A DNA stretch of 64,000 nucleotides, from assembly GCA_029213265.1 (NCBI GenBank), contig JARGNG010000002.1:1-64000 (forward strand), read 5' to 3'. The position numbers and the translations under genes are program-made. The stretch comes from Verrucomicrobiales bacterium (GTDB taxonomy: Bacteria > Verrucomicrobiota > Verrucomicrobiia > Verrucomicrobiales > DEV007). A model generated the notes under the pieces. The model was not told the origin of the DNA. It made no database searches and saw only the letters and a list, made by a program, of their open reading frames with translations. Below, piece after piece: positions 48,175 through 64,000 of this stretch; the stretch's first letter is position 1; the number at the start of each line of letters is the position of its first letter.

Positions 48175-49533
48175 ATGAAACTTCTCTGCTTCGGAATCGT
48201 GCTTCTTCCCCTGCTGCTGCCGGGAGCCGGGATCCGCGTGGATCCGGAGAAGGGTGATGATGGCGGTGACGGAGTTTCATCGCCGGTGAAAAGCATTGCC
48301 CGCGCGATCCGCTTGGCCGGGCCGGGAGATACGATTCATTTGAAGCCCGCTACCTACTACGAAAGCGCGGTCTTTATTGAAAAGCACGGCGAGCCTGACA
48401 AACCGATTATTCTAGACGGGCACGGCGCGGTGTTGGACGGAAGCGAACCTGTCACCACGGAGGAATGGGAGAAGGTGGGGGGCGACGTCTACCGAAGAAC
48501 TCGGCTTTATCCGGCAACCGATGATGCCATCGTCGGGCGGTGGTTCCTTCTCTGGGACGGGGGAATGATCCGGATGAATCGTTGTTCGAAGGGACCGAGC
48601 GAGCCGCTCAAGAAAGTCGGAGATCTCCAGCCGAAGGAATGGACCTACGTGAAAGAGGAGGATGCCTTTTATCTTCGCCTGTCGCCCGGTCAGGATCTCG
48701 ACCAGGCAAATATCCGCTACCCGGCCCGGAGCAGTTCGGTGATTTTTGCAAAGGCTGGATCCAACATCACGGTGCGAAACCTGACCGGAACGCATCCCTA
48801 CAATGACGGCTTCAATATTCATGGTGCGCAGCGAAACCTGGTTTTTGAAAACATCACTGCGATCGAATGCGGAGACGACGGATTCAGCGCGCATGAAGAC
48901 GCGACCTGCCGGATTGACGGTTTTACCAGCATCGGAAATGCGACAGGGCTCTGCGATACGGGAACAAGTCAAACCCACTACCAAAATGTTTTCATCAGGG
49001 AGTGCCATGGTTTCGACCTCTACTTTATCGGACTGGAGCACTCGCTTGAAAATGCGGTTATCGAAAGCAGCGCGGCGAAGACCTTCTGGCTCGACGGGAA
49101 TCATCTCGAAGAGGGCGGCCATTGCCGCCTGCGAATGAGAAATGTGCTGATTCGGCGGGTAGGGGAGGCCGCGCAGGAACTTCGAATCGGTCGGGGCGGC
49201 TCCCTGCACGCGATCCGGTGCACCTTTGAGGGAGTGAATGTCATGGTCACTCCCAGTGGGGCCGTCGACTTTCGAAGTTGCCTGTTCCGGAGAGGAAAGT
49301 TCCAGCCGGAGGCCCTCGTTTTTCCCAACTCGATCTGGCGTGGCGCAGGCAATCTCTACGATTTTAAGAGCCTTCGCATTGCACAGACGTTTTACCAGCC
49401 GGAGACCTTCGCCGACTTTCAAAAGGCTACCGCGAGCGAGTTCGACTCTTCCTGGCAAGTGCTGGAAGATATACCGCTGAAAATTGGTGCCGATGAAGCT
49501 TCCCTGCAATTTTTGAAACCTGAATTCAAATGA
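48175..49533 (+). CDS. Right-handed parallel beta-helix protein, exported
   Basis: 452 aa with a signal peptide (MKLLCFGIVLLPLLLPGAG). The DUF1565-type start (IRVDPEKGDDGGDGVSSPVK, SIARAIRLAGPGDTIHLKPA) is followed by beta-helix coils (NITVRNLTGTHPYNDGFNIH, NLVFENITAIECGDDGFSAH). This fold belongs to polysaccharide lyases and GH28-type hydrolases. Candidate acidic residues are the paired Asp in ECGDDGFSAHED, but no lyase family can be fixed. Its stop overlaps the next start as ATGA, so the two genes are translationally coupled. Confidence 0.85.
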   Translation: MKLLCFGIVLLPLLLPGAGIRVDPEKGDDGGDGVSSPVKSIARAIRLAGPGDTIHLKPATYYESAVFIEKHGEPDKPIILDGHGAVLDGSEPVTTEEWEKVGGDVYRRTRLYPATDDAIVGRWFLLWDGGMIRMNRCSKGPSEPLKKVGDLQPKEWTYVKEEDAFYLRLSPGQDLDQANIRYPARSSSVIFAKAGSNITVRNLTGTHPYNDGFNIHGAQRNLVFENITAIECGDDGFSAHEDATCRIDGFTSIGNATGLCDTGTSQTHYQNVFIRECHGFDLYFIGLEHSLENAVIESSAAKTFWLDGNHLEEGGHCRLRMRNVLIRRVGEAAQELRIGRGGSLHAIRCTFEGVNVMVTPSGAVDFRSCLFRRGKFQPEALVFPNSIWRGAGNLYDFKSLRIAQTFYQPETFADFQKATASEFDSSWQVLEDIPLKIGADEASLQFLKPEFK

Positions 49534-51107
49534 CAATACGAACGATTTTTCACCTCATCGTGGCTGGCTTGTTAGTCGTCCCTTCTTCTCAGGCCGGAGT
49601 CTCCGTCGACGGTGGACCCGAAACAAACGAAGCCGTATTCTTCTCCTTTGACGACCACGCGATTCCGTGGCGGAACAATGTTTTCGTCACTCCGGTGAGG
49701 GCAACGAAGCATCCCGCGAATCCTGTTCTCCGTCGGGGGCCGGAAGGGGCTCCCGATCATGGCCACGCGATTTTGTATGGAACGGTCATGAAGCAGGGCG
49801 ACAAATTCCGGATGTGGTATCTCGGTATGTTTGAAACGGAGGTTAAGGCCGGGCAGGCACCGGGATGGTGGCGCCCGATGTGCTACGCGGAGAGTGAGGA
49901 CGGCGTTACCTGGACGAAGCCGGACCTGGGCCTCGTGGAGTTCAAAGGTAACAGGAAGAACAACATCTGCCTGATCGAGTCGGAGGTGCCATCCCTCGCA
50001 AAAGTGAACGACTTTCTCTCCGTGATTCACGAGCCGGAGGATCCCGATCCGGAGCGACGATTCAAGTGTGTCTACATCGCCCATCCGGAGTTTGCTGATG
50101 TCAAAGGCGGACGCAGCACCATTGGTCCCGATGAGCGGCGCTGGGGGGCTTTCATTGCCGCGACCAGTGCGGATGGGTTGAGCTGGAAAGTGGTGGGCGA
50201 CCGCCCTATGAACGCCGGTAACGAACGCTTCGAAGTGTCCGCTCTCTACAAGTTCGGGAATTTCTACTATGCACCCGGACAGCTTATTTCCCCGTGGACC
50301 TGGCGAATGGATGGCAGTGAGGTGGGGCGCGTCACCCTCACCTATCGTTCTGCTGATTTCGATCAGTGGTCGGATTCGAAGGCGTTTGCGCTGGCCCGGC
50401 CCGGGCAGCTCACCTCGACTCCAGTCAAAGGTCAGCAGGGGCATATGGGGGCGGGTCTCTGGAATCGTGGAAATGTCATGGTGGGGCTCAATGGGCTTTG
50501 GCAGGACGCTCCTCAAAAACCTGAGGATGGAAAGTATTGGAACCAGGGGGTGAGGATCGACCTGGGGCTCGTGGTCAGCAACAACGGGATTCATTTCCGC
50601 GAACCGATTCCGGATCACAAAGTGATCGCACGGGGGGAGCCGGGTAAGTGGGATGACATCGCACTGTTGCAGGGGCACGCGTTCGTCAACGAAGGGGATA
50701 AGACGATGATTTGGTATTCGCACTGGGATACCGGCGGAAAGTTGAAGGATATGGAAATCGGGCTGGCGACCTTACGACGCGACGGATTTGGATACCTGTC
50801 CCGGAAGATTGCTGATTCATCGGCTCACGTAGAGACGGCGCATTTCCGATCGAGTTCTCCCGCAAAGGTATTTGTCAATGTGGAGGGTGTCACAGCAGCG
50901 TCACCACTTCTCGTTCAGCTGATCGATGAGTTGGCCCGCCCGGTCGAGGGGGCCTCTGGTGAGGTGACGACCTCGGGAACGCGGATCGAAGTTCCCTTGG
51001 CCAATCCGATTCCCGTCGGGAAGTCCTACGCCTTGCGCGTCAGGCTTCCTGATGGAAGCGATGCGAAACTCTACGCGATTTATGTGGAGGGAGAAGGGAA
51101 TCAGTAG
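49530..51107 (+). CDS. Exported five-bladed beta-propeller glycoside-hydrolase-like protein
   Basis: 525 aa with a signal peptide (MTIRTIFHLIVAGLLVVPSS). The blades carry FRMWYLGMFE, WRPMCYAESEDGVTWTKPDL, RWGAFIAATSADGLSWKVV, GLVVSNNGIHFREP and LQGHAFVNEGDKTMIWYSHW. These S.DG..W strands are typical of GH32/GH43/GH68-like and related furanosidase-like folds. A beta-sandwich fills about 410-525. It probably hydrolyses or binds an oligosaccharide released by the coupled beta-helix protein. The exact GH family is not assignable by eye. Confidence 0.82.
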   Translation: MTIRTIFHLIVAGLLVVPSSQAGVSVDGGPETNEAVFFSFDDHAIPWRNNVFVTPVRATKHPANPVLRRGPEGAPDHGHAILYGTVMKQGDKFRMWYLGMFETEVKAGQAPGWWRPMCYAESEDGVTWTKPDLGLVEFKGNRKNNICLIESEVPSLAKVNDFLSVIHEPEDPDPERRFKCVYIAHPEFADVKGGRSTIGPDERRWGAFIAATSADGLSWKVVGDRPMNAGNERFEVSALYKFGNFYYAPGQLISPWTWRMDGSEVGRVTLTYRSADFDQWSDSKAFALARPGQLTSTPVKGQQGHMGAGLWNRGNVMVGLNGLWQDAPQKPEDGKYWNQGVRIDLGLVVSNNGIHFREPIPDHKVIARGEPGKWDDIALLQGHAFVNEGDKTMIWYSHWDTGGKLKDMEIGLATLRRDGFGYLSRKIADSSAHVETAHFRSSSPAKVFVNVEGVTAASPLLVQLIDELARPVEGASGEVTTSGTRIEVPLANPIPVGKSYALRVRLPDGSDAKLYAIYVEGEGNQ

Positions 51108-51130: not shown

Positions 51131-53467
51131 ATGAGCGAATCGGAATTCAATCCCTACCTCTGGGCCGTGGTCACTGATTATGACCTCGATTTGTGGGAGC
51201 GCCATCTCGCGGACTTTGTGCCGCCTGATTCCTTCGATGCGCACGCTCATCTCTGGCGAACGCAGGACCTCGGCGATCCCACTCCGGCTCTCGCAGCGGC
51301 GGGCCCGCCGGTCGTGACCCGTGAGGTGTACGATCAACGTCTGTCTCTATGGATGCCGAATCGCTGTCCCACGGGGGGGCTGTTCTTCCCCTTTCCGACC
51401 CGGGTTCTGGATGTCGATGGCGCCAACCGTCACCTCGCAGAGGAAATGGAAAAGGATCCGCATTCCCGCGGGCTTATGATTCTCACCCCCCGCCAGAATG
51501 CAGAGGATGTAGAGCGACAGGTCCTTGAGGACGGATTTGTCGGATTCAAGGTCTACCATCTTTTTGCGGAACGTGAGGATACGTTTTTTGCTCCCACAGA
51601 AGAGTTCATTCCCGGGTGGGCCTGGGAGCTGGCCCACCGCCGGGGTCTTGTCATCATGCTGCACATGGTGTTGCCCCGGGCTCTCGCTGAGCCGGAAAAT
51701 CAGAAATACATCCGCGAGAATTGTCTTCGTTATCCCGGCGCGAAGCTTGTCCTCGCGCATGCAGCCCGGGGATTCTGTGGAAAGAATACCGTGGAAGGAA
51801 TCGACTCCCTGCGTGGTATCGAGAATGTCTATTTCGATACTTCGGCGGTTTGTGAGCCGGAGGCCTTTGAGGCAATTCTCAAGGTGTTCGGACCAACCCG
51901 CCTGTTCTTTGGTGCGGATTTTTGTGTGACCGAAATGCGAAGCCGCTGTGTTGATCTGGCAGATGGATTTCTCTGGCTCGATGAAATCCGAGCTGACTTT
52001 GGCAGGTCCCGCTTTGCCCGCCCCACGCTTCTCGGAATCGAATCGCTCCTTGCCCTGAAGCAGGCCTGTCTCAACCAACACCTCACCGCTTGTGATGTGG
52101 AGGAAATCTTCTGCCATGGCGCCCGGCGAATGCTGGGACTGCCCCTGCCCCGAACGATGCCGGATGTTCAGGAAGCCTATCGCATTGCTAAAGAGCTGAT
52201 TCCCGGGGGCACCCAACTGCTCAGCAAGCGACCGGAGATGTTCGCGCCCGACCAGTGGCCGGCTTACTACCGTGAGGCGAGGGGATGCGAAATCATCGAT
52301 ATGGAAGGTCGGCGATTCATCGACATGAGTCTTAACGGGATTTTGTCGACCATTCTCGGCTTCAGTGATCCGGATGTGAATGCCGCGGTCATTCGCCGGG
52401 TTTCGCTTGGCCAGATGTCGACCTTGCAAACGTATGACGAGGTCGAACTCGCCTTGTTGCTTCTGGAGATTCATCCCTGGGCGGAAAACGCGCGCTTCAC
52501 CCGTGCCGGTGGCGAGTCCATGGCTGTGGCGGTTCGCATCGCGAGGGCGGGCACAGGACGCGATAAAATTGCGCTGTGCGGTTACCACGGATGGCATGAC
52601 TGGTATCTTGCCGCCAACTTGCAGGAAGCGGGTAATTTGAATTCCCACCTCCTTCCCGGCCTCGATCCCGCCGGAGTACCAAGTGGTCTCGCCGGGAACA
52701 CCCTGACATTTCACTACAATGATCTGGAAGAGCTGGATGCTTTGATTGCTGCGCATGGTTCGGAACTCGCCGCTGTCGTGATGGAGCCAACCCGGTTCGT
52801 CGATCCGGAACCGGGTTTTCTCGAAGGTGTCCGAGAGCGTTGCGACCGGATCGGGGCACGGCTGGTCTTTGATGAAATCTCGATTGGTTGGCGCCTCTGT
52901 CCCGGCGGTGCTCACTTGAAGTTTGGTGTCACTCCGGATATTGCCGTCTTCGCGAAGGCGCTCGGAAACGGGTTTCCGATTGGTGCGATCGTTGGCAGAA
53001 AAGAAACGATGCAGGCTGCGCAGTCCTCCTTTATTTCCAGCACTTTCTGGACCGAGGGAGTTGGACCGGCGGCGGCGCTTGCCTGTGTGAGAAAGATGCT
53101 TTCGGTCGACGTTCCCGCACATTTGCGAAAGATCGGTTTACTCGTTATCGCGGGATGGCAGGAACTGGGTGAAAAGTATGAGCTTCCGGTGAAGACACCC
53201 GGACGTCCCGAAATGGCAATCCTGGCTTTCGACCACCCGGAGGCGAGCGCGCTCACAACCTTGATGACCGCAGAGATGCTGAAGCGGGGCTATCTTGCCG
53301 CCGCAGGGTTCAACGCCACGCTGGCTCACGAGCCACGCCATGTTGCGGATTATCTTGCTGCGCTGGATGAAGTTTTCGAGATTCTTGCCGAGGCGATTGA
53401 AAAAGAGGACATCGCTTCCCGTATCGGCGGACCGGTCAAGCATTCGGGTTTTGCCCGGCTTACTTGA
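51131..53467 (+). CDS. Fusion: amidohydrolase (TIM-barrel) plus class-III PLP aminotransferase
   Basis: 778 aa, no signal peptide, AGGAAA before the ATG. Residues 1-340 are an amidohydrolase_2-type barrel with H38xH40 (DAHAHLW), Lys140, His178 (IMLHMV), His210 (LAHAARG) and Asp263 (FFGADFC), a full metal-site set. Residues about 345-778 are a class-III aminotransferase close to glutamate-1-semialdehyde aminomutase: LIPGGTQLLSKRPEMF, FTRAGGESMAVAVRIARAGT, YHGWHDWYL, VVMEP, Asp581 in VFDEIS, and PLP-Lys609 in FAKALGNGFPIGA. Both halves look active and cytosolic. The order suggests hydrolysis of one step feeding or following transamination on a sugar or keto-acid; the substrate is unknown. Neighbours are exported polysaccharide enzymes. 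Confidence 0.93.
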   Translation: MSESEFNPYLWAVVTDYDLDLWERHLADFVPPDSFDAHAHLWRTQDLGDPTPALAAAGPPVVTREVYDQRLSLWMPNRCPTGGLFFPFPTRVLDVDGANRHLAEEMEKDPHSRGLMILTPRQNAEDVERQVLEDGFVGFKVYHLFAEREDTFFAPTEEFIPGWAWELAHRRGLVIMLHMVLPRALAEPENQKYIRENCLRYPGAKLVLAHAARGFCGKNTVEGIDSLRGIENVYFDTSAVCEPEAFEAILKVFGPTRLFFGADFCVTEMRSRCVDLADGFLWLDEIRADFGRSRFARPTLLGIESLLALKQACLNQHLTACDVEEIFCHGARRMLGLPLPRTMPDVQEAYRIAKELIPGGTQLLSKRPEMFAPDQWPAYYREARGCEIIDMEGRRFIDMSLNGILSTILGFSDPDVNAAVIRRVSLGQMSTLQTYDEVELALLLLEIHPWAENARFTRAGGESMAVAVRIARAGTGRDKIALCGYHGWHDWYLAANLQEAGNLNSHLLPGLDPAGVPSGLAGNTLTFHYNDLEELDALIAAHGSELAAVVMEPTRFVDPEPGFLEGVRERCDRIGARLVFDEISIGWRLCPGGAHLKFGVTPDIAVFAKALGNGFPIGAIVGRKETMQAAQSSFISSTFWTEGVGPAAALACVRKMLSVDVPAHLRKIGLLVIAGWQELGEKYELPVKTPGRPEMAILAFDHPEASALTTLMTAEMLKRGYLAAAGFNATLAHEPRHVADYLAALDEVFEILAEAIEKEDIASRIGGPVKHSGFARLT

Positions 53468-58229: not shown

Positions 58230-59678
58230 ATGATCCGTAGACTGTTGTTCTCTCATGGTATGGCAATTTTGTTAGGATTGGCTTCGACGAGTTTTGCGGC
58301 CGACCCTCTCTTTGACATTCAATCGATCAGGGATGCGAAGAGCCTCGAAGTGGTGGTTCTCGAGGATTGGAAGCCTTCGCCGAAGGATTCGTCGGTTCGA
58401 CAGAAGTTGATCGAGATTACGGTGTGCGAATGGTGGCCGGGGCAGAAAGTTCGTTTGCCGGTGACATTGAATGCACCTGCAGATGGTAAGGCCTGTCGAA
58501 ATATCGTGGTCGCGAATCAACCTCTCGCGAAACGGGCCGCTACTCCGACGGGCGGTCAGTTGTCGCTTCTGAAAAACTATGGCGTGGGCATCGTCCTGAT
58601 TGGTATGGGAACGATCGATGCGATGGAGCCGCCGGGCGAATTGCACCACGGCATGCGGGAGCAATTGCTGAAAACGAGGAACCCGCGGTATTCTCCTGCG
58701 TGGATTTGGGGAATGAGCCAGATGCGTGCACTGACGGCCGCGATGACGGAGCCGGAAGTGTTTCAGCCGGAGAAAGTGTTGACCACCGGAGGGTCAAAGC
58801 GGGGCGTCGCGGCTGCGGTTGCCGGCATCCATGATGATCGATTCACCGCCATCCTTCCCGTCGTGGCGCCTCCGCTCGGGAACCCGGGAGCAGCGGCGTA
58901 TGTCATGGGCACCGAGCCGAAGCGCCTCGGAGAAATCGATGAGGAGTTTTACAGGACTTCGGATTCCGGCATTGCCAAAGCAATGAGGGAGCGCGCGCAA
59001 CGCCGGGCTGACAATCGAGTTACCCTGACTCAGGCAGAAGAGGCGGGTTGGACGAAAGAGGAAATCGAGGGCATGACAGATCGGGTTTGGAATGCGTGCC
59101 GGATCACGGATTTTCTCCCGGCAGTTCAGGAGCGTGGGCTTGCGTTTTTTTACAATGTAGGCACGAATGATAGTGTGACTCCTGCTTTGGTTTCGCTGGG
59201 AGAGCATCATCCCGATTTCCCGATCTGCATCATCCCGGGGGGGCAGCATGGAGGTCCGGCGACGGCCGGATTTACGAGGCGGGTGCCGACGCTTCCGGAA
59301 GTGCAGGACAATTTTCTGAGTTTTGCCCGAGGGCACTTTTTCGGTGATCGGGAGTTTCCGGGGTCGCCGCAGATCGAATCGAAGTGGGATGCCGGGACAA
59401 AGGCACTTTCGGTCACAGTGACTTTTCCGGAAGGGGTTTCGCCGGAGGCTAATGCGCTCTGGTGGAGTAAGGGCCGCAGTAAGCCCTACACACTTCCGTT
59501 TGAGTATGACGAATGGGAGTCTGTCGAGATGGATTCAGATCCGAAGGGTCGATTGACCGCTTCGATCCGGCTGGAGACAATTCCGGAGATGCTAGATTTT
59601 CTCACGCTGCACACCGACACGGAGAATGGACTCCCGCTAACCGTTTCCAGTGCCTATCAAAGAATCACGACGAAGTAG
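58230..59678 (+). CDS. PhoPQ-activated pathogenicity-related (PqaA-like) alpha/beta hydrolase
   Basis: 482 aa from ATG 58230, where a signal peptide begins (MIRRLLFSHGMAILLGLAST). The family hallmark is the nucleophile region TTGGSKRGVAAAVAGI with Ser189, followed by DDRFTAILPVVAPPL. Near the C-terminus FYNVGTNDSVTPA supplies the Asp, GGQHGG the His, and a beta-sandwich end has NALWWSKGRSKPYTLPFEYD. PqaA-type proteins are exported hydrolases of unknown substrate, numerous in this phylum. Its end overlaps the convergent agmatinase gene by 14 nt. Confidence 0.88.
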   Translation: MIRRLLFSHGMAILLGLASTSFAADPLFDIQSIRDAKSLEVVVLEDWKPSPKDSSVRQKLIEITVCEWWPGQKVRLPVTLNAPADGKACRNIVVANQPLAKRAATPTGGQLSLLKNYGVGIVLIGMGTIDAMEPPGELHHGMREQLLKTRNPRYSPAWIWGMSQMRALTAAMTEPEVFQPEKVLTTGGSKRGVAAAVAGIHDDRFTAILPVVAPPLGNPGAAAYVMGTEPKRLGEIDEEFYRTSDSGIAKAMRERAQRRADNRVTLTQAEEAGWTKEEIEGMTDRVWNACRITDFLPAVQERGLAFFYNVGTNDSVTPALVSLGEHHPDFPICIIPGGQHGGPATAGFTRRVPTLPEVQDNFLSFARGHFFGDREFPGSPQIESKWDAGTKALSVTVTFPEGVSPEANALWWSKGRSKPYTLPFEYDEWESVEMDSDPKGRLTASIRLETIPEMLDFLTLHTDTENGLPLTVSSAYQRITTK

Positions 59679-60537
59679 CCATGGTCAGCAACCACTCGCG
59701 CAAAAGTTTTGCAGCGAGGACGGAGGAGATGCCGGAAGGGTCGAGGCCGGGGGCCAATTCGACCAGATCAAATCCGACGATATTTTTTCCTTCCAACACA
59801 GCGCGCATCGAGTCGGCTGTTTCCCAGGAAATACCACCTGCTTCCGGGGTGCCTGTCCCCGGGACTTCGGCGGGATCAAAGGCATCAATGTCGAACGTCA
59901 CGTAAATCGGGGAGTCCTGAAATCGACGGCCCTCAAGCGCTTTCGTAAGGGCGGCTGCGTTGGGAGCTACGTATCGCTCTTCGGCGTGCATTTCCCGATA
60001 CTCCTCCCGTGTTCCGGAGCGAATTCCAACCTGGAGGAGTCGATCAGAGGGAAGGAAGTCCAGGATTCTCCGCATCGCGCAGGCATGGGAATGACGAGAG
60101 CCTTCATATTCTTCCCGAAGATCTGCGTGCGCATCAATTTGAATCACGACGAGATCGGGATGGGCATCAAAGGCGGCTCGTACCGCACCGGGAGAAATGG
60201 AATGCTCCCCTCCCAGAACGATTGGAATACCTCCATTCCGATACATGGCTGCGACAACTCCGTTGAGCGCGGCAACGACCTCTTCGGGGGGCTGCGAAGG
60301 ATCCACCTCAAGATTGCCGAGATCGTGAAAATGTATCTCTTCGAGATCGCGGTCCTGGATGGGCGAATAGGTTTCGATTCCATCCTCACTGATGGTGCGA
60401 ATTCCATCCGGTCCCTCTCGGGTTCCTTTTCGAAAGGAGGCCGTTTTGTCATAGGGCACTCCGAGAAGCAGCGGGCATCCCGGTTTCGGTTCCCTTGCTG
60501 ATGCGAGGAAGGGAATCTCTGGAGGAATAATGGACAT
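59665..60537 (-). CDS. speB: Agmatinase (ureohydrolase)
   Basis: 290 aa, the normal length of agmatinases. The two-Mn site is complete: His112 in GGEHS, Asp135-His137-Asp139 in DAHADL, and Asp216/Asp218 in TFDIDAFDPAEVPGTGTPEA. The residue pattern SHACAMRR fits agmatinase better than arginase. It hydrolyses agmatine to putrescine and urea in the cytosol. It is the last of three genes with the carboxyspermidine decarboxylase and dehydrogenase, so the operon makes putrescine and converts it on. Arginine decarboxylase, which makes agmatine, is not in the window. Confidence 0.93.
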   Translation of the reverse strand: MSIIPPEIPFLASAREPKPGCPLLLGVPYDKTASFRKGTREGPDGIRTISEDGIETYSPIQDRDLEEIHFHDLGNLEVDPSQPPEEVVAALNGVVAAMYRNGGIPIVLGGEHSISPGAVRAAFDAHPDLVVIQIDAHADLREEYEGSRHSHACAMRRILDFLPSDRLLQVGIRSGTREEYREMHAEERYVAPNAAALTKALEGRRFQDSPIYVTFDIDAFDPAEVPGTGTPEAGGISWETADSMRAVLEGKNIVGFDLVELAPGLDPSGISSVLAAKLLREWLLTMATSS

Positions 60538-60545
60538 GTCAGGGG

Positions 60546-61799
60546 TTACCCAAGGCGGCTCTTGTAGTCATCGTAGCTGAACTCACGAACTACCTCGATG
60601 TCGCCGTCCTCCTGAAGAATGGCGATGGAGGGGAGTCGTACGCCGTTGAAGGTAGTATTCTTCACCATGGTGTAGTGAGACATGTCATGAAAGACAATCT
60701 GTTGCCCGATTTCGAGTGGTTCGTCGAAGCTGTAGTCCCCGATGACATCTCCCGAAAGGCAGGTCGGTGCTCCGAGGCGGTAGGTGTGGGGCTTTTCTCC
60801 CGGTTCGCCGGCTCCCTCCACATCGGGGCGGTAGGGCATCTCGAGGACATCCGGCATGTGGGCTGTGGCGGAGACATCGAGTACTGCAATTTGCATTCCG
60901 TTTTCAACCAGGTCGATGACGCGACCGACGAGGACTCCCGTTCCGGTGGAAATGGCTTCTCCGGGTTCGAGATAGATCTGCAAGCGGGGATAACGGGCCT
61001 GTAGTTCACGAATGACCCGGATGAGACGATCCACATCGTATCCGGGACTGGTGATGAGGTGGCCTCCACCCATGTTGAGCCACTTCATCCGCTTGAGGTA
61101 GGTATCGAATTTTGCGATGACATGCTCCAGTGTGCGCTCCAGAGCATCGGCTCCCTGCTCGCAAAGAGTGTGAAAGTGAAGACCTTCGATTCCCTCCATG
61201 TCTTCCTCATCCATCCGCGAAGAGAGGACTCCAAAGCGCGATCCCGGAGCGCAGGGGTTGTAAATCTCGGCGACCGCTTCCGCATATTCGGGATTGATCC
61301 GAAGTCCGGCAGAAACAGGGCGTTCGGCAGCGAGAAGCTCTTCCCGAAACCGCTTCCATTGGCTGAGTGAGTTGAACACGATGTGGTCGGAGATTTCCAG
61401 AAGAGCCGATATTTCCTCTTCCGTGTAAGCGGGAGAAAATACATGGACCTCGCCTCCGAATTCTTCGGCTCCGAGCCGGGCTTCGTGAAGCCCACTTGCG
61501 GTGGTCCCGGAGAGGTAATTTCTCAGAGTCGGGTAAAGATTGAAACAGGCGAAGGCCTTCTGCGCGAGAAGGACACGGGCCCCCGTTTCTTCTTCGACGC
61601 GTTTGAGGATGAGGCCGTTCCTGTGGAAGGCGGCGTGATCCATGAGATAGCAGGGAGTCTTGAGCGCATGTTTCTCCGCCGCGACCGTGAGGAGCGAAAA
61701 GGTGGTTTTCGGATCATCTGCCGATGGAAGGTCGAATTGCGGCACTTCAGGATTGGCGTTCAGGGAAAGTTCCGGTTGCTGGGTGGGCTTGATATTCAT
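60546..61799 (-). CDS. nspC: Carboxynorspermidine/carboxyspermidine decarboxylase
   Basis: 417 aa from ATG 61799 (an earlier start in the frame is less likely). It is a fold-III PLP decarboxylase: PLP-Lys81 in LLAQKAFACF, the glycine loop LNMGGGHLI, the diphosphate-binding LEPGEAI, and the catalytic Cys in PTCLSGDV. This short alanine-racemase-fold form, lacking extra domains, is NspC. It removes CO2 from carboxyspermidine (or carboxynorspermidine) to give spermidine or norspermidine. Overall order and strand match the dehydrogenase upstream (191 nt) and agmatinase downstream (8 nt). Confidence 0.93.
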   Translation of the reverse strand: MNIKPTQQPELSLNANPEVPQFDLPSADDPKTTFSLLTVAAEKHALKTPCYLMDHAAFHRNGLILKRVEEETGARVLLAQKAFACFNLYPTLRNYLSGTTASGLHEARLGAEEFGGEVHVFSPAYTEEEISALLEISDHIVFNSLSQWKRFREELLAAERPVSAGLRINPEYAEAVAEIYNPCAPGSRFGVLSSRMDEEDMEGIEGLHFHTLCEQGADALERTLEHVIAKFDTYLKRMKWLNMGGGHLITSPGYDVDRLIRVIRELQARYPRLQIYLEPGEAISTGTGVLVGRVIDLVENGMQIAVLDVSATAHMPDVLEMPYRPDVEGAGEPGEKPHTYRLGAPTCLSGDVIGDYSFDEPLEIGQQIVFHDMSHYTMVKNTTFNGVRLPSIAILQEDGDIEVVREFSYDDYKSRLG

Positions 61800-61990
61800 G
61801 GAAAAGGAAAATGTGAAAGAGAATGATTTGGGTCGACACGGGTACCCGGAAAACAAGGGGGATTAGAAAAAGCGCGAAGCGCGAAAGCTGAATGCAGTCG
61901 GTCTTGCGACGACGCTTCAGAAGTCAGACGACAGGATTTCCGGCGGAAATCGGTCTGCTGAACGGCACAGGTCGGAAAGCGACGCTGTGC
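61800..61990. other. 191-bp spacer in the polyamine operon with a small hairpin
   Basis: The spacer lies between the dehydrogenase stop and the decarboxylase start. GGCACAG (61964-61970) and CTGTGCC (61985-61991) form a perfect 7-bp stem that begins at the dehydrogenase stop. It could weaken readthrough, since the gap is long for this operon. No frame in it is convincing. Confidence 0.35.
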
Positions 61991-63208
61991 CTACGGTTCT
62001 AATAATTGATCTTCTTCACGGACATGCCAGGGGAGTCCCCAGGCATTGAGATCATCCATGAAGAGATCGGGGTCGAGCTGCTCGACATTCCAAACACCCG
62101 GTCGCAGCCACGCTCCGGACATCAGTTGGCGGGCACCAATCATAGCAGGCACACCAGCGGTGTAGCTGATGGCCTGACTTTTTACTTCTTCGAAGCAGGC
62201 CTGGTGATCGCAAATATTGTAAACAAACCGGGTTCCGATCTCTCCGGTCTCTTTGAGTTTTCCGGTGATGAGGCAACCAATACAGGTTTTGCCTTTCGTC
62301 AGTGGACCGAGAGAAGCGGGATCGGGAAGCACCTGCTTCAGAAACTGCAGCGGTGCGATCTGCTGTCCCTCAAATTCAATCGGCTCGATCGAGGTCATGC
62401 CGACGTTCTCGAGAACCTGAAGATGAGTGATGTATTTCTCCGAAAAAGTCATCCAGAAACGAATCCGCTCGAGCCCGGGAAGGTTCTTGGCGAGGCTTTC
62501 GAGTTCTTCGTGATAGAGAAGATAAATCCGGCGGTTGCCAACTTCCGGGTCGGGAAATTCGAAGTCCCGACTCACCGACAAAGCGGGAATCTCTTTCCAC
62601 TCCCCCTTTTCCCAATAGCGACCATTCGCGGTGATCTCCCGGATGTTGATCTCAGGATTGAAATTCGTGGCAAAAGGAAGCCCGTGATCCCCGGCATTGG
62701 CATCGAGGATATCCACTGTCGTGATTTCATCGAACCAATGTTTCAGGGCATAGGCACAGAAAACGTTGGTCACACCAGGATCAAATCCTGACCCGAGAAT
62801 GGCAGTGAGACCGGCGTCGCGAAAGCGGTCCTGATACTCCCACTGCCACTTGTATTCGAAATGCGGATCGTCGAGGGGCTCGTAATTTGCCGTGTCGAGA
62901 TAGTGCACTCCTGCCTCCAGGCAGGCATCCATCAGGGTGAGATCCTGATAGGGGAGCGCGATATTGAGCAGGATCTTCGGCTGAATGTCTTTCAGAAACG
63001 CAGCGGTCTCGGCGACGTTGTCAGCATCGAGTGCGGCGGTTTTGATTTCGACTCCGGTTGATTTGAGAATATCCGCCGCGATGGCATCGCATTTGGATTT
63101 GGTCCGGCTGACGAGCCAGATTTCTCCAAAGGTTTCTGCGTCTTGCGCACATTTGTGAGCAACCACATTCCCGACGCCTCCTGCGCCCACTATGACAGTT
63201 CGAATCAT
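61991..63208 (-). CDS. Carboxynorspermidine/carboxyspermidine dehydrogenase (saccharopine-dehydrogenase-like)
   Basis: 405 aa from ATG 63208; upstream frame is rejected because the Rossmann motif starts directly here (MIRTVIVGAGGVGNVVAHKC). The saccharopine-dehydrogenase family features continue with NIALPYQDLTLMDACLEAGV, YLDTANYEP and GSGFDPGVTNVFCAYAL. The LYS9-like protein next to NspC is the known carboxyspermidine dehydrogenase. It condenses putrescine (or diaminopropane) with aspartate semialdehyde and reduces the imine with NADPH. It is the first gene of the polyamine operon and is divergent from a carboxylesterase gene. Confidence 0.92.
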   Translation of the reverse strand: MIRTVIVGAGGVGNVVAHKCAQDAETFGEIWLVSRTKSKCDAIAADILKSTGVEIKTAALDADNVAETAAFLKDIQPKILLNIALPYQDLTLMDACLEAGVHYLDTANYEPLDDPHFEYKWQWEYQDRFRDAGLTAILGSGFDPGVTNVFCAYALKHWFDEITTVDILDANAGDHGLPFATNFNPEINIREITANGRYWEKGEWKEIPALSVSRDFEFPDPEVGNRRIYLLYHEELESLAKNLPGLERIRFWMTFSEKYITHLQVLENVGMTSIEPIEFEGQQIAPLQFLKQVLPDPASLGPLTKGKTCIGCLITGKLKETGEIGTRFVYNICDHQACFEEVKSQAISYTAGVPAMIGARQLMSGAWLRPGVWNVEQLDPDLFMDDLNAWGLPWHVREEDQLLEP

Positions 63209-63353
63209 CAAATTTTGAGGCGTGGAATTTGGCGGTTTGTCGTCCAAAGTCAACGGGAAAGAGAGGGCTTCGGAACGAGAAAAACCGGGCGTCACGCACA
63301 GTGCCTGCTTGTTTATGGCGAGCGGATTCGATACCCTCCGGATCTCGTCTGCC

Positions 63354-64000
63354 ATGAAAATCACTTCCTGCCTTTTCGGTCTCTTTTTTCTTGTCCTCAG
63401 CCAACCGGCACTGTCGGCGCCTGAGGTTCTGCGCGACATCGCCTACGACGATGAGCATGAAGCGCAGGTTCTGGATGTCTATCGGGTGGAGTCAAAGGAG
63501 CCGAGTCCCGTCATGCTCTACATTCATGGGGGAGGCTGGAGGGCAGGTTCGAAGAACAGGATTCCCGGGTTTTTGGCCCGGGGGGTGGAGGAAGGCATCT
63601 ATTCGGTGGTCTCGGTGGAATATCGCTTCACGGATGTGGCGGTTCATCCTGCTCAGGTGAATGACTGCGTCCGTGCAATTCAGTTTGTGAGATCGAAAGC
63701 TAAGAAGTGGAATCTGGATCCGGATCGGATCGGCGTGACCGGCGGATCGGCGGGAGCGCATTTGTCCCTGTGGATTGCTCTTCACGATGAACTCGCGAAT
63801 CCTGAATCAGAGGATCCGGTGGAACGCGAATCCTCCCGTGTTTCCTGTGCCATCGGATTTGCCGGCCCGACAGACTGGAGTCTCTTGAGCGAGCTTCGTC
63901 ATGATCACCCTGCCTATCGGCAGCTTCTCGGATACGAGCCCGGAACACCGGCGGAGAAAATGGAGGAAGCGAAAATGAAGAGCGTTTCACCGATCACCTT
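63354..64000 (+). CDS. Alpha/beta-hydrolase carboxylesterase, exported, 3' end cut by window
   Basis: 215 codons visible from ATG 63354, with a signal peptide (MKITSCLFGLFFLVLSQPAL). The oxyanion motif HGGGW is at 58-62 and the nucleophile elbow GGSAG is at 130-134 (Ser132), as in the lipase/esterase family IV (HSL-type) used on acetylated sugars. The catalytic Asp and His would lie past the window edge. It is divergent from the polyamine operon with 145 bp between starts. Confidence 0.9.
   Translation, partial: MKITSCLFGLFFLVLSQPALSAPEVLRDIAYDDEHEAQVLDVYRVESKEPSPVMLYIHGGGWRAGSKNRIPGFLARGVEEGIYSVVSVEYRFTDVAVHPAQVNDCVRAIQFVRSKAKKWNLDPDRIGVTGGSAGAHLSLWIALHDELANPESEDPVERESSRVSCAIGFAGPTDWSLLSELRHDHPAYRQLLGYEPGTPAEKMEEAKMKSVSPIT

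Follow-up and report, generated by a model that had tools for sequence, protein, structure and literature searches.

Why does one bacterial polypeptide carry both an amidohydrolase and a class-III PLP aminotransferase, and on what compound would the two act? The question is raised by a gene in the 64,000-nt stretch of a Verrucomicrobiales genome that we analysed (the window). A fusion of this sort commits two enzyme families that are promiscuous elsewhere to a single substrate. Our literature search returned nothing relevant on a fusion of this kind, and the protein reaches no NCBIfam family at cutoff.

The frame is uninterrupted over its whole length, with no stop between the two domains (Table 1), and both domains score above the curated Pfam gathering cutoffs: Amidohydro_2 (PF04909) matches residues 36-271 with 58.4 bits against a cutoff of 26.4, and Aminotran_3 (PF00202) matches residues 376-739 with 136.9 bits against 30.5. 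In an alignment of 32 fusions, which reaches down to ~40% overall identity, D36, H38, H40, K140, H178, H210, D263, D581 and K609 are identical in every sequence, and the D, HxH, K, H, H, D series is also invariant across 29 amidohydrolase domains, unfused ones included. The initial annotation had claimed an unbroken frame with two intact active sites, naming the HxH at 38/40, Lys140, His178, His210, Asp263 and the PLP lysine 609; all of these residues proved correct, and their conservation together with the domain scores bears out the claim. One protein joins a complete amidohydrolase to a complete aminotransferase. In the AlphaFold2 model of the fusion (mean pLDDT 87.8, pTM 0.86) the ligand residues lie where the barrel strands end, as expected: K140 ends beta4, H178 follows beta5 and H210 follows beta6. 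A carbamylated bridging lysine at K140 is plausible, but since neighbouring Amidohydro_2 proteins commonly carry Lys or Arg at this point of beta4, K140 alone is no proof of one.

Table 1. Features of the fusion locus and of a second locus in the same genome (window coordinates unless a contig is named).
Feature	Coordinates	Strand	Basis or content
Fusion gene (amidohydrolase-aminotransferase), 778 aa, no obvious signal peptide	51131..53467	+	ORF, Pfam, alignment, AlphaFold2 model
Amidohydro_2 TIM-barrel metal hydrolase domain, aa 24-338	51200..52144	+	ligand set D36, H38, H40, K140, H178, H210, D263
Class-III PLP aminotransferase domain, aa 345-778	52163..53464	+	D581, K609
win525, 525-aa exported-looking protein, probable five-bladed beta-propeller glycosidase	49530..51107	+	N-terminal signal-like stretch by eye
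Exported-looking beta-helix protein	48175..49533	+	signal-like N-terminus by eye
Second-locus cluster	G000:C176, 139-146 kb (L136:5014-11663)		BNR, HpaI aldolase, RraA-like, amidohydrolase, GFO, SDR

A frameshift or assembly artefact can be excluded, because the same fusion occurs at 76-85% identity in independent assemblies. Among 142 related genomes, 33 carry it in one piece, with both halves covered by a single open match, and three more carry it in pieces. GTDB contigs, mostly metagenome bins, place the fusion in about nine phyla (Verrucomicrobiota, Planctomycetota, Lentisphaerota, Bacteroidota, Spirochaetota, Acidobacteriota, Armatimonadota, Hydrogenedentota and Bacillota); cultured carriers include Chitinophaga alhagiae T22 and two strains of Membranihabitans marinus. 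No plasmid-borne fusion was found at 80% query coverage. The two halves also exist apart: unfused orthologues are adjacent genes in a planctomycete (L048) and a candidate-phylum bacterium (L088), lie side by side but divergently oriented in a Solibacteraceae bin (L085), and in L074 the unfused amidohydrolase lies ~8 kb from the aminotransferase. Trees of the two halves, built by quick search and supported by SH-aLRT only, agree in the three main fused groups that they recover. The fusions, the adjacent unfused pairs and the similar trees together argue for the functional coupling that had first been proposed from the fusion itself: judged from sequence, this is the pattern of two enzymes working together.

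The descent of the aminotransferase half bears on the question of substrate. In its tree every fused sequence falls in one clade of 60 rows (49 fused, 11 unfused; SH-aLRT 98), and the outgroups of this clade are unfused aminotransferases. PseF-, NeuB- or PseG-type genes are found in 28 of the 35 outgroup loci and in none of the 63 that belong to the fused clade. Because taxonomy confounds this contrast in part, we added the matched control regions described below. The class-III aminotransferases of nonulosonate loci are unfused homologues, 49-56% identical to the aminotransferase half, and share with it a C-terminal GFxRL motif and the start GGTQLLSKRP; however, they stand in synthesis clusters, whereas the enzyme of the window is fused and stands in a degradative setting. 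At locus L100, for example, the aminotransferase is accompanied by PseC, PseG and a NeuB/PseI-type synthase. The same arrangement is seen in the group I flagellin glycosylation islands of Aeromonas (PMC7874193) and in the O-antigen cluster of Legionella serogroup 6 (gene Lp6_764; PMC3694923); the two published genes were recognised as counterparts from their annotation and position alone, and not through sequence comparison. The aminotransferase half descends from a subfamily of pseudaminic/nonulosonic-acid biosynthesis loci. We also note that a class-III aminotransferase together with an aldo/keto reductase (AKR) or a GFO enzyme recurs inside pseudaminic-type clusters (L075, L099, L100, L111 and L115); the match between the AKRs of biosynthetic and catabolic loci is weak (~23-31%).

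What surrounds the fused enzyme is of another kind. Two closely spaced genes precede the fusion in the window, making it third in the row: the beta-helix gene overlaps win525 by 4 bp and the win525 stop lies 23 bp before the fusion; at a locus of the same genus (L117) the order is beta-helix, BNR, win525, fusion. The beta-helix gene is retained next to the fusion in 8 of the 21 loci. For the family of win525, which we call win525/c10, we scored the fused loci of related genomes and, with the same profiles, control regions taken from those genomes: 16 of 21 fused loci (the window and 20 related ones) have a member at most ~10 kb from the fusion, vs 1 of 20 matched controls (p 2.7e-6, for genomes that are not independent). 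Pfam gave no match to the family, NCBIfam no convincing one and a single-sequence search of the PDB none; its profile weakly reaches GH130 phosphorylases and its model resembles five-bladed propeller glycosidases. Since the confidence of that model is low (pLDDT 65), we treat the glycosidase match as a lead, and the family as a candidate for a new family of glycoside hydrolases. The setting of the fusion singles out this uncharacterised family of beta-propellers as the likely glycosidase. Members are ~500 aa long and probably secreted (L037:8385-9920, L058:5269-6735, L065 and others). A separate observation concerns the BNR gene of L117, to which a sequence outside the fusion operon in the window genome, G000:C80:235169-236296, is 60% identical; this match holds one in-frame TAG.

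Further partner genes recur across phyla. A Bacteroidota operon consists of the fusion, an HpaI-type aldolase, an aldo/keto reductase, a GFO/IDH/MocA dehydrogenase and an SDR, in that order, and the fusion loci of this phylum also hold MFS or Na+/solute (SSF) transporters, BNR and beta-propeller genes. HpaI aldolase, GFO and SDR genes accompany the fusion in a planctomycete (L057) and a closely related unfused aminotransferase in a verrucomicrobial locus (L070). Of the parts that a nonulosonate catabolic pathway would need (a sialidase-like hydrolase, a transporter, a pyruvate lyase and a deacylase), BNR_2 is present in 16 of 53 fused loci, SSF in 11, HpaI in 8 and a DHDPS-type aldolase in a few, figures that come from related and hence not independent genomes, many of them metagenome bins, and from profiles built on loci among those counted. 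HpaI, AKR and GFO genes adjoin the fusion in a minority of loci only. The window genome itself has such genes at a second locus: the cluster on contig C176 (Table 1) holds a BNR gene, an HpaI aldolase, an amidohydrolase sharing 65% identity with its L070 counterpart, and a GFO and an SDR 48% and 63% identical to those of L057, next to a protein that by eye is RraA-like in sequence. This genome therefore does have the genes that accompany the fusion elsewhere, but at another place, and the cluster looks like the missing part of the pathway of the fusion. A search of the window's genome for a DHDPS-type aldolase found none, and a true NanA did not turn up either.

The enrichment of the propeller family and the aldolase, dehydrogenase and transporter neighbours agree with the carbohydrate-catabolic setting, of an amino-sugar or acidic-sugar kind, in which the initial annotation had placed the gene. 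Its suggestion of a link to the GH18 gene that follows fared worse. GH18 was considered as a partner and rejected: such a gene is near the fusion in 1 of 21 loci, that of the window, and since none of the 20 related loci examined has one nearby, it is probably not part of the unit.

We propose, tentatively and with somewhat less than even confidence, that the fusion is a cytosolic bifunctional enzyme that carries out two catabolic steps on an N-acylated amino-sugar acid, nonulosonate-like or of a related kind. The connection of the aminotransferase to nonulosonates suggests a bacterial sialic-acid-like substrate, and a nonulosonic-acid-like compound of this type, or a closely related amino-sugar acid, is to our mind the most likely one on the sequence comparisons. 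The exported beta-propeller and beta-helix proteins would free this unusual acid from a polysaccharide or glycoprotein, with BNR sialidase-like proteins sharing the task in relatives, and a Na+/solute or MFS symporter would take it up. We infer that the amidohydrolase domain would act next, most likely taking off the N-acyl group to expose a primary amine (or else opening a lactone), and that the PLP domain would then transaminate the exposed amine to give a ketone. From there, dehydrogenases acting on sugars, of the GFO/IDH/MocA, SDR and aldo/keto reductase types, might complete the breakdown together with a pyruvate-type aldolase of the HpaI or DHDPS family; aldolases can act on sialic-acid-like substrates without a prior dehydratase. 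Several findings count against the proposal: the low share of loci with adjoining HpaI, AKR and GFO genes, the weak AKR match, the lack of a DHDPS-type hit and of a true NanA, and the distance of the amidohydrolase half from characterised enzymes. A bolder version, which we offer as speculation and think rather doubtful, is that the fusion marks an undescribed, widespread pathway for eating pseudaminic/legionaminic-type nonulosonates, in which a deacylase-transaminase would reverse the amination chemistry of biosynthesis. A literature search found no described catabolic route for bacterial nonulosonates, and the link from these sugars to the aminotransferase yields a concrete proposal for how the surface sugars that shield flagella and capsules could be recycled.

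How far does the amidohydrolase half allow a different first step? Like the hydrolases, lactonases and decarboxylases of Amidohydro_2, it has the barrel fold and the metal-ligand pattern; the fold was judged from the sequence profile and DSSP only, because the matches listed by the fold search with the complete model all fell in the aminotransferase half. However, it is distant from these enzymes: its best PDB profile matches (1e-7 to 1e-3) include decarboxylases and lactonase-type proteins as well as hydrolases, among which there is no close characterised relative (E 1e-7 at best) and none annotated as a PLP fusion. They include 2ffi (2-pyrone-4,6-dicarboxylate hydrolase) and 4dlf, listed as Amidohydrolase 2, which we take to be of the L-fuconolactonase type. 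Furthermore, lactonase-like Amidohydro_2 genes adjoin unfused aminotransferases in L070, L072 and L092, and for this reason the main rival to deacylation is a sugar lactonase. In that scheme an SDR or GFO enzyme oxidizes C1 of an amino sugar after its import, the amidohydrolase opens the resulting lactone, the PLP domain removes the amine of the aminoaldonate and the keto-deoxy acid so formed is cleaved by HpaI, which would suit the dehydrogenases and HpaI aldolases nearby. Against it, known lactonases are far in sequence, no sugar-acid dehydratase occurs among the neighbours examined, and the window genome has an extra amidohydrolase of this sort on C176 besides the fused one, so that the fused domain is unlikely to perform the same step; this last argument is a mild one. 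We regard the lactonase scheme as possible, with a chance clearly below that of deacylation.

The aminotransferase half bears on whether the substrate is a sugar at all. Its nearest solved structures are glutamate-1-semialdehyde aminomutases (GSAM), FumI and PctV, and FumI (6hbs/6hbv) gives the highest VIA Z (40.6 over 396 residues, rmsd 2.4 Å, 24% identity). FumI is an aminopentol aminotransferase of class III that removes an amine in a catabolic pathway, as we propose for the fused domain; it differs in being unfused and in its substrate, hydrolysed fumonisin. That fold relatives such as FumI, PctV and D-phenylglycine aminotransferase use diverse amines, and that a D-amino-acid-oxidase-like gene adjoins the unfused aminotransferase in Paenibacillus (L104), would fit a pair that acts on a non-sugar amide or lactam, or on an amino-acid-like compound, amid incidental carbohydrate genes. 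We consider this unlikely, since the propeller family is enriched against matched controls and the sugar-acid aldolase and dehydrogenase partners recur across phyla.

A role opposite in direction is less probable again. The fusion might modify a nonulosonic acid during biosynthesis of the cell's own surface glycan, as would be expected from its sister aminotransferases in pseudaminic-type clusters. However, the marker genes of those clusters are missing from all 63 fused-clade loci, and the fusion is surrounded by exported degradative enzymes, transporters and aldolases, so that we give this role only a slight chance and keep to the catabolic one.

The label 'glutamate-semialdehyde-aminomutase-like' given to the aminotransferase half is right as to fold but not as to family. 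The PLP lysine is shared with GSAM (HemL) and PRK06209, and GSAM supplies the top fold and HMM matches; on the other hand, the domain stays below the NCBIfam cutoffs (185.8 vs 527.3 bits for TIGR00713, 199.5 vs 398 for PRK00062 and 217.2 vs 486 for PRK06209), and its gene context is another. In addition, the 'EAG' segment, which we take to hold the GSAM-specific Glu, is lost by a three-residue deletion in the window's aminotransferase and in all family members aligned. That the fusion could nevertheless be the GSAM of tetrapyrrole synthesis with an accessory domain, as its best matches might suggest, is hardly credible given these scores and this deletion, and given a second, true HemL-like gene in the genome (L002, a 449-aa frame), whose product retains the EAG segment.

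Two minor observations concern genes outside this argument. Upstream of the unfused pair in L088, the stretch L088:4393-5841 holds a sulfoquinovose-isomerase-like protein and an IclR regulator, and a gene of the same cluster as these upstream genes lies near the unfused pair in L074. In the window, agmatinase-like, carboxynorspermidine-decarboxylase-like and saccharopine-dehydrogenase-like genes stand in a row at 59665-63439 on the minus strand, a group that from its sequences probably serves polyamine synthesis.
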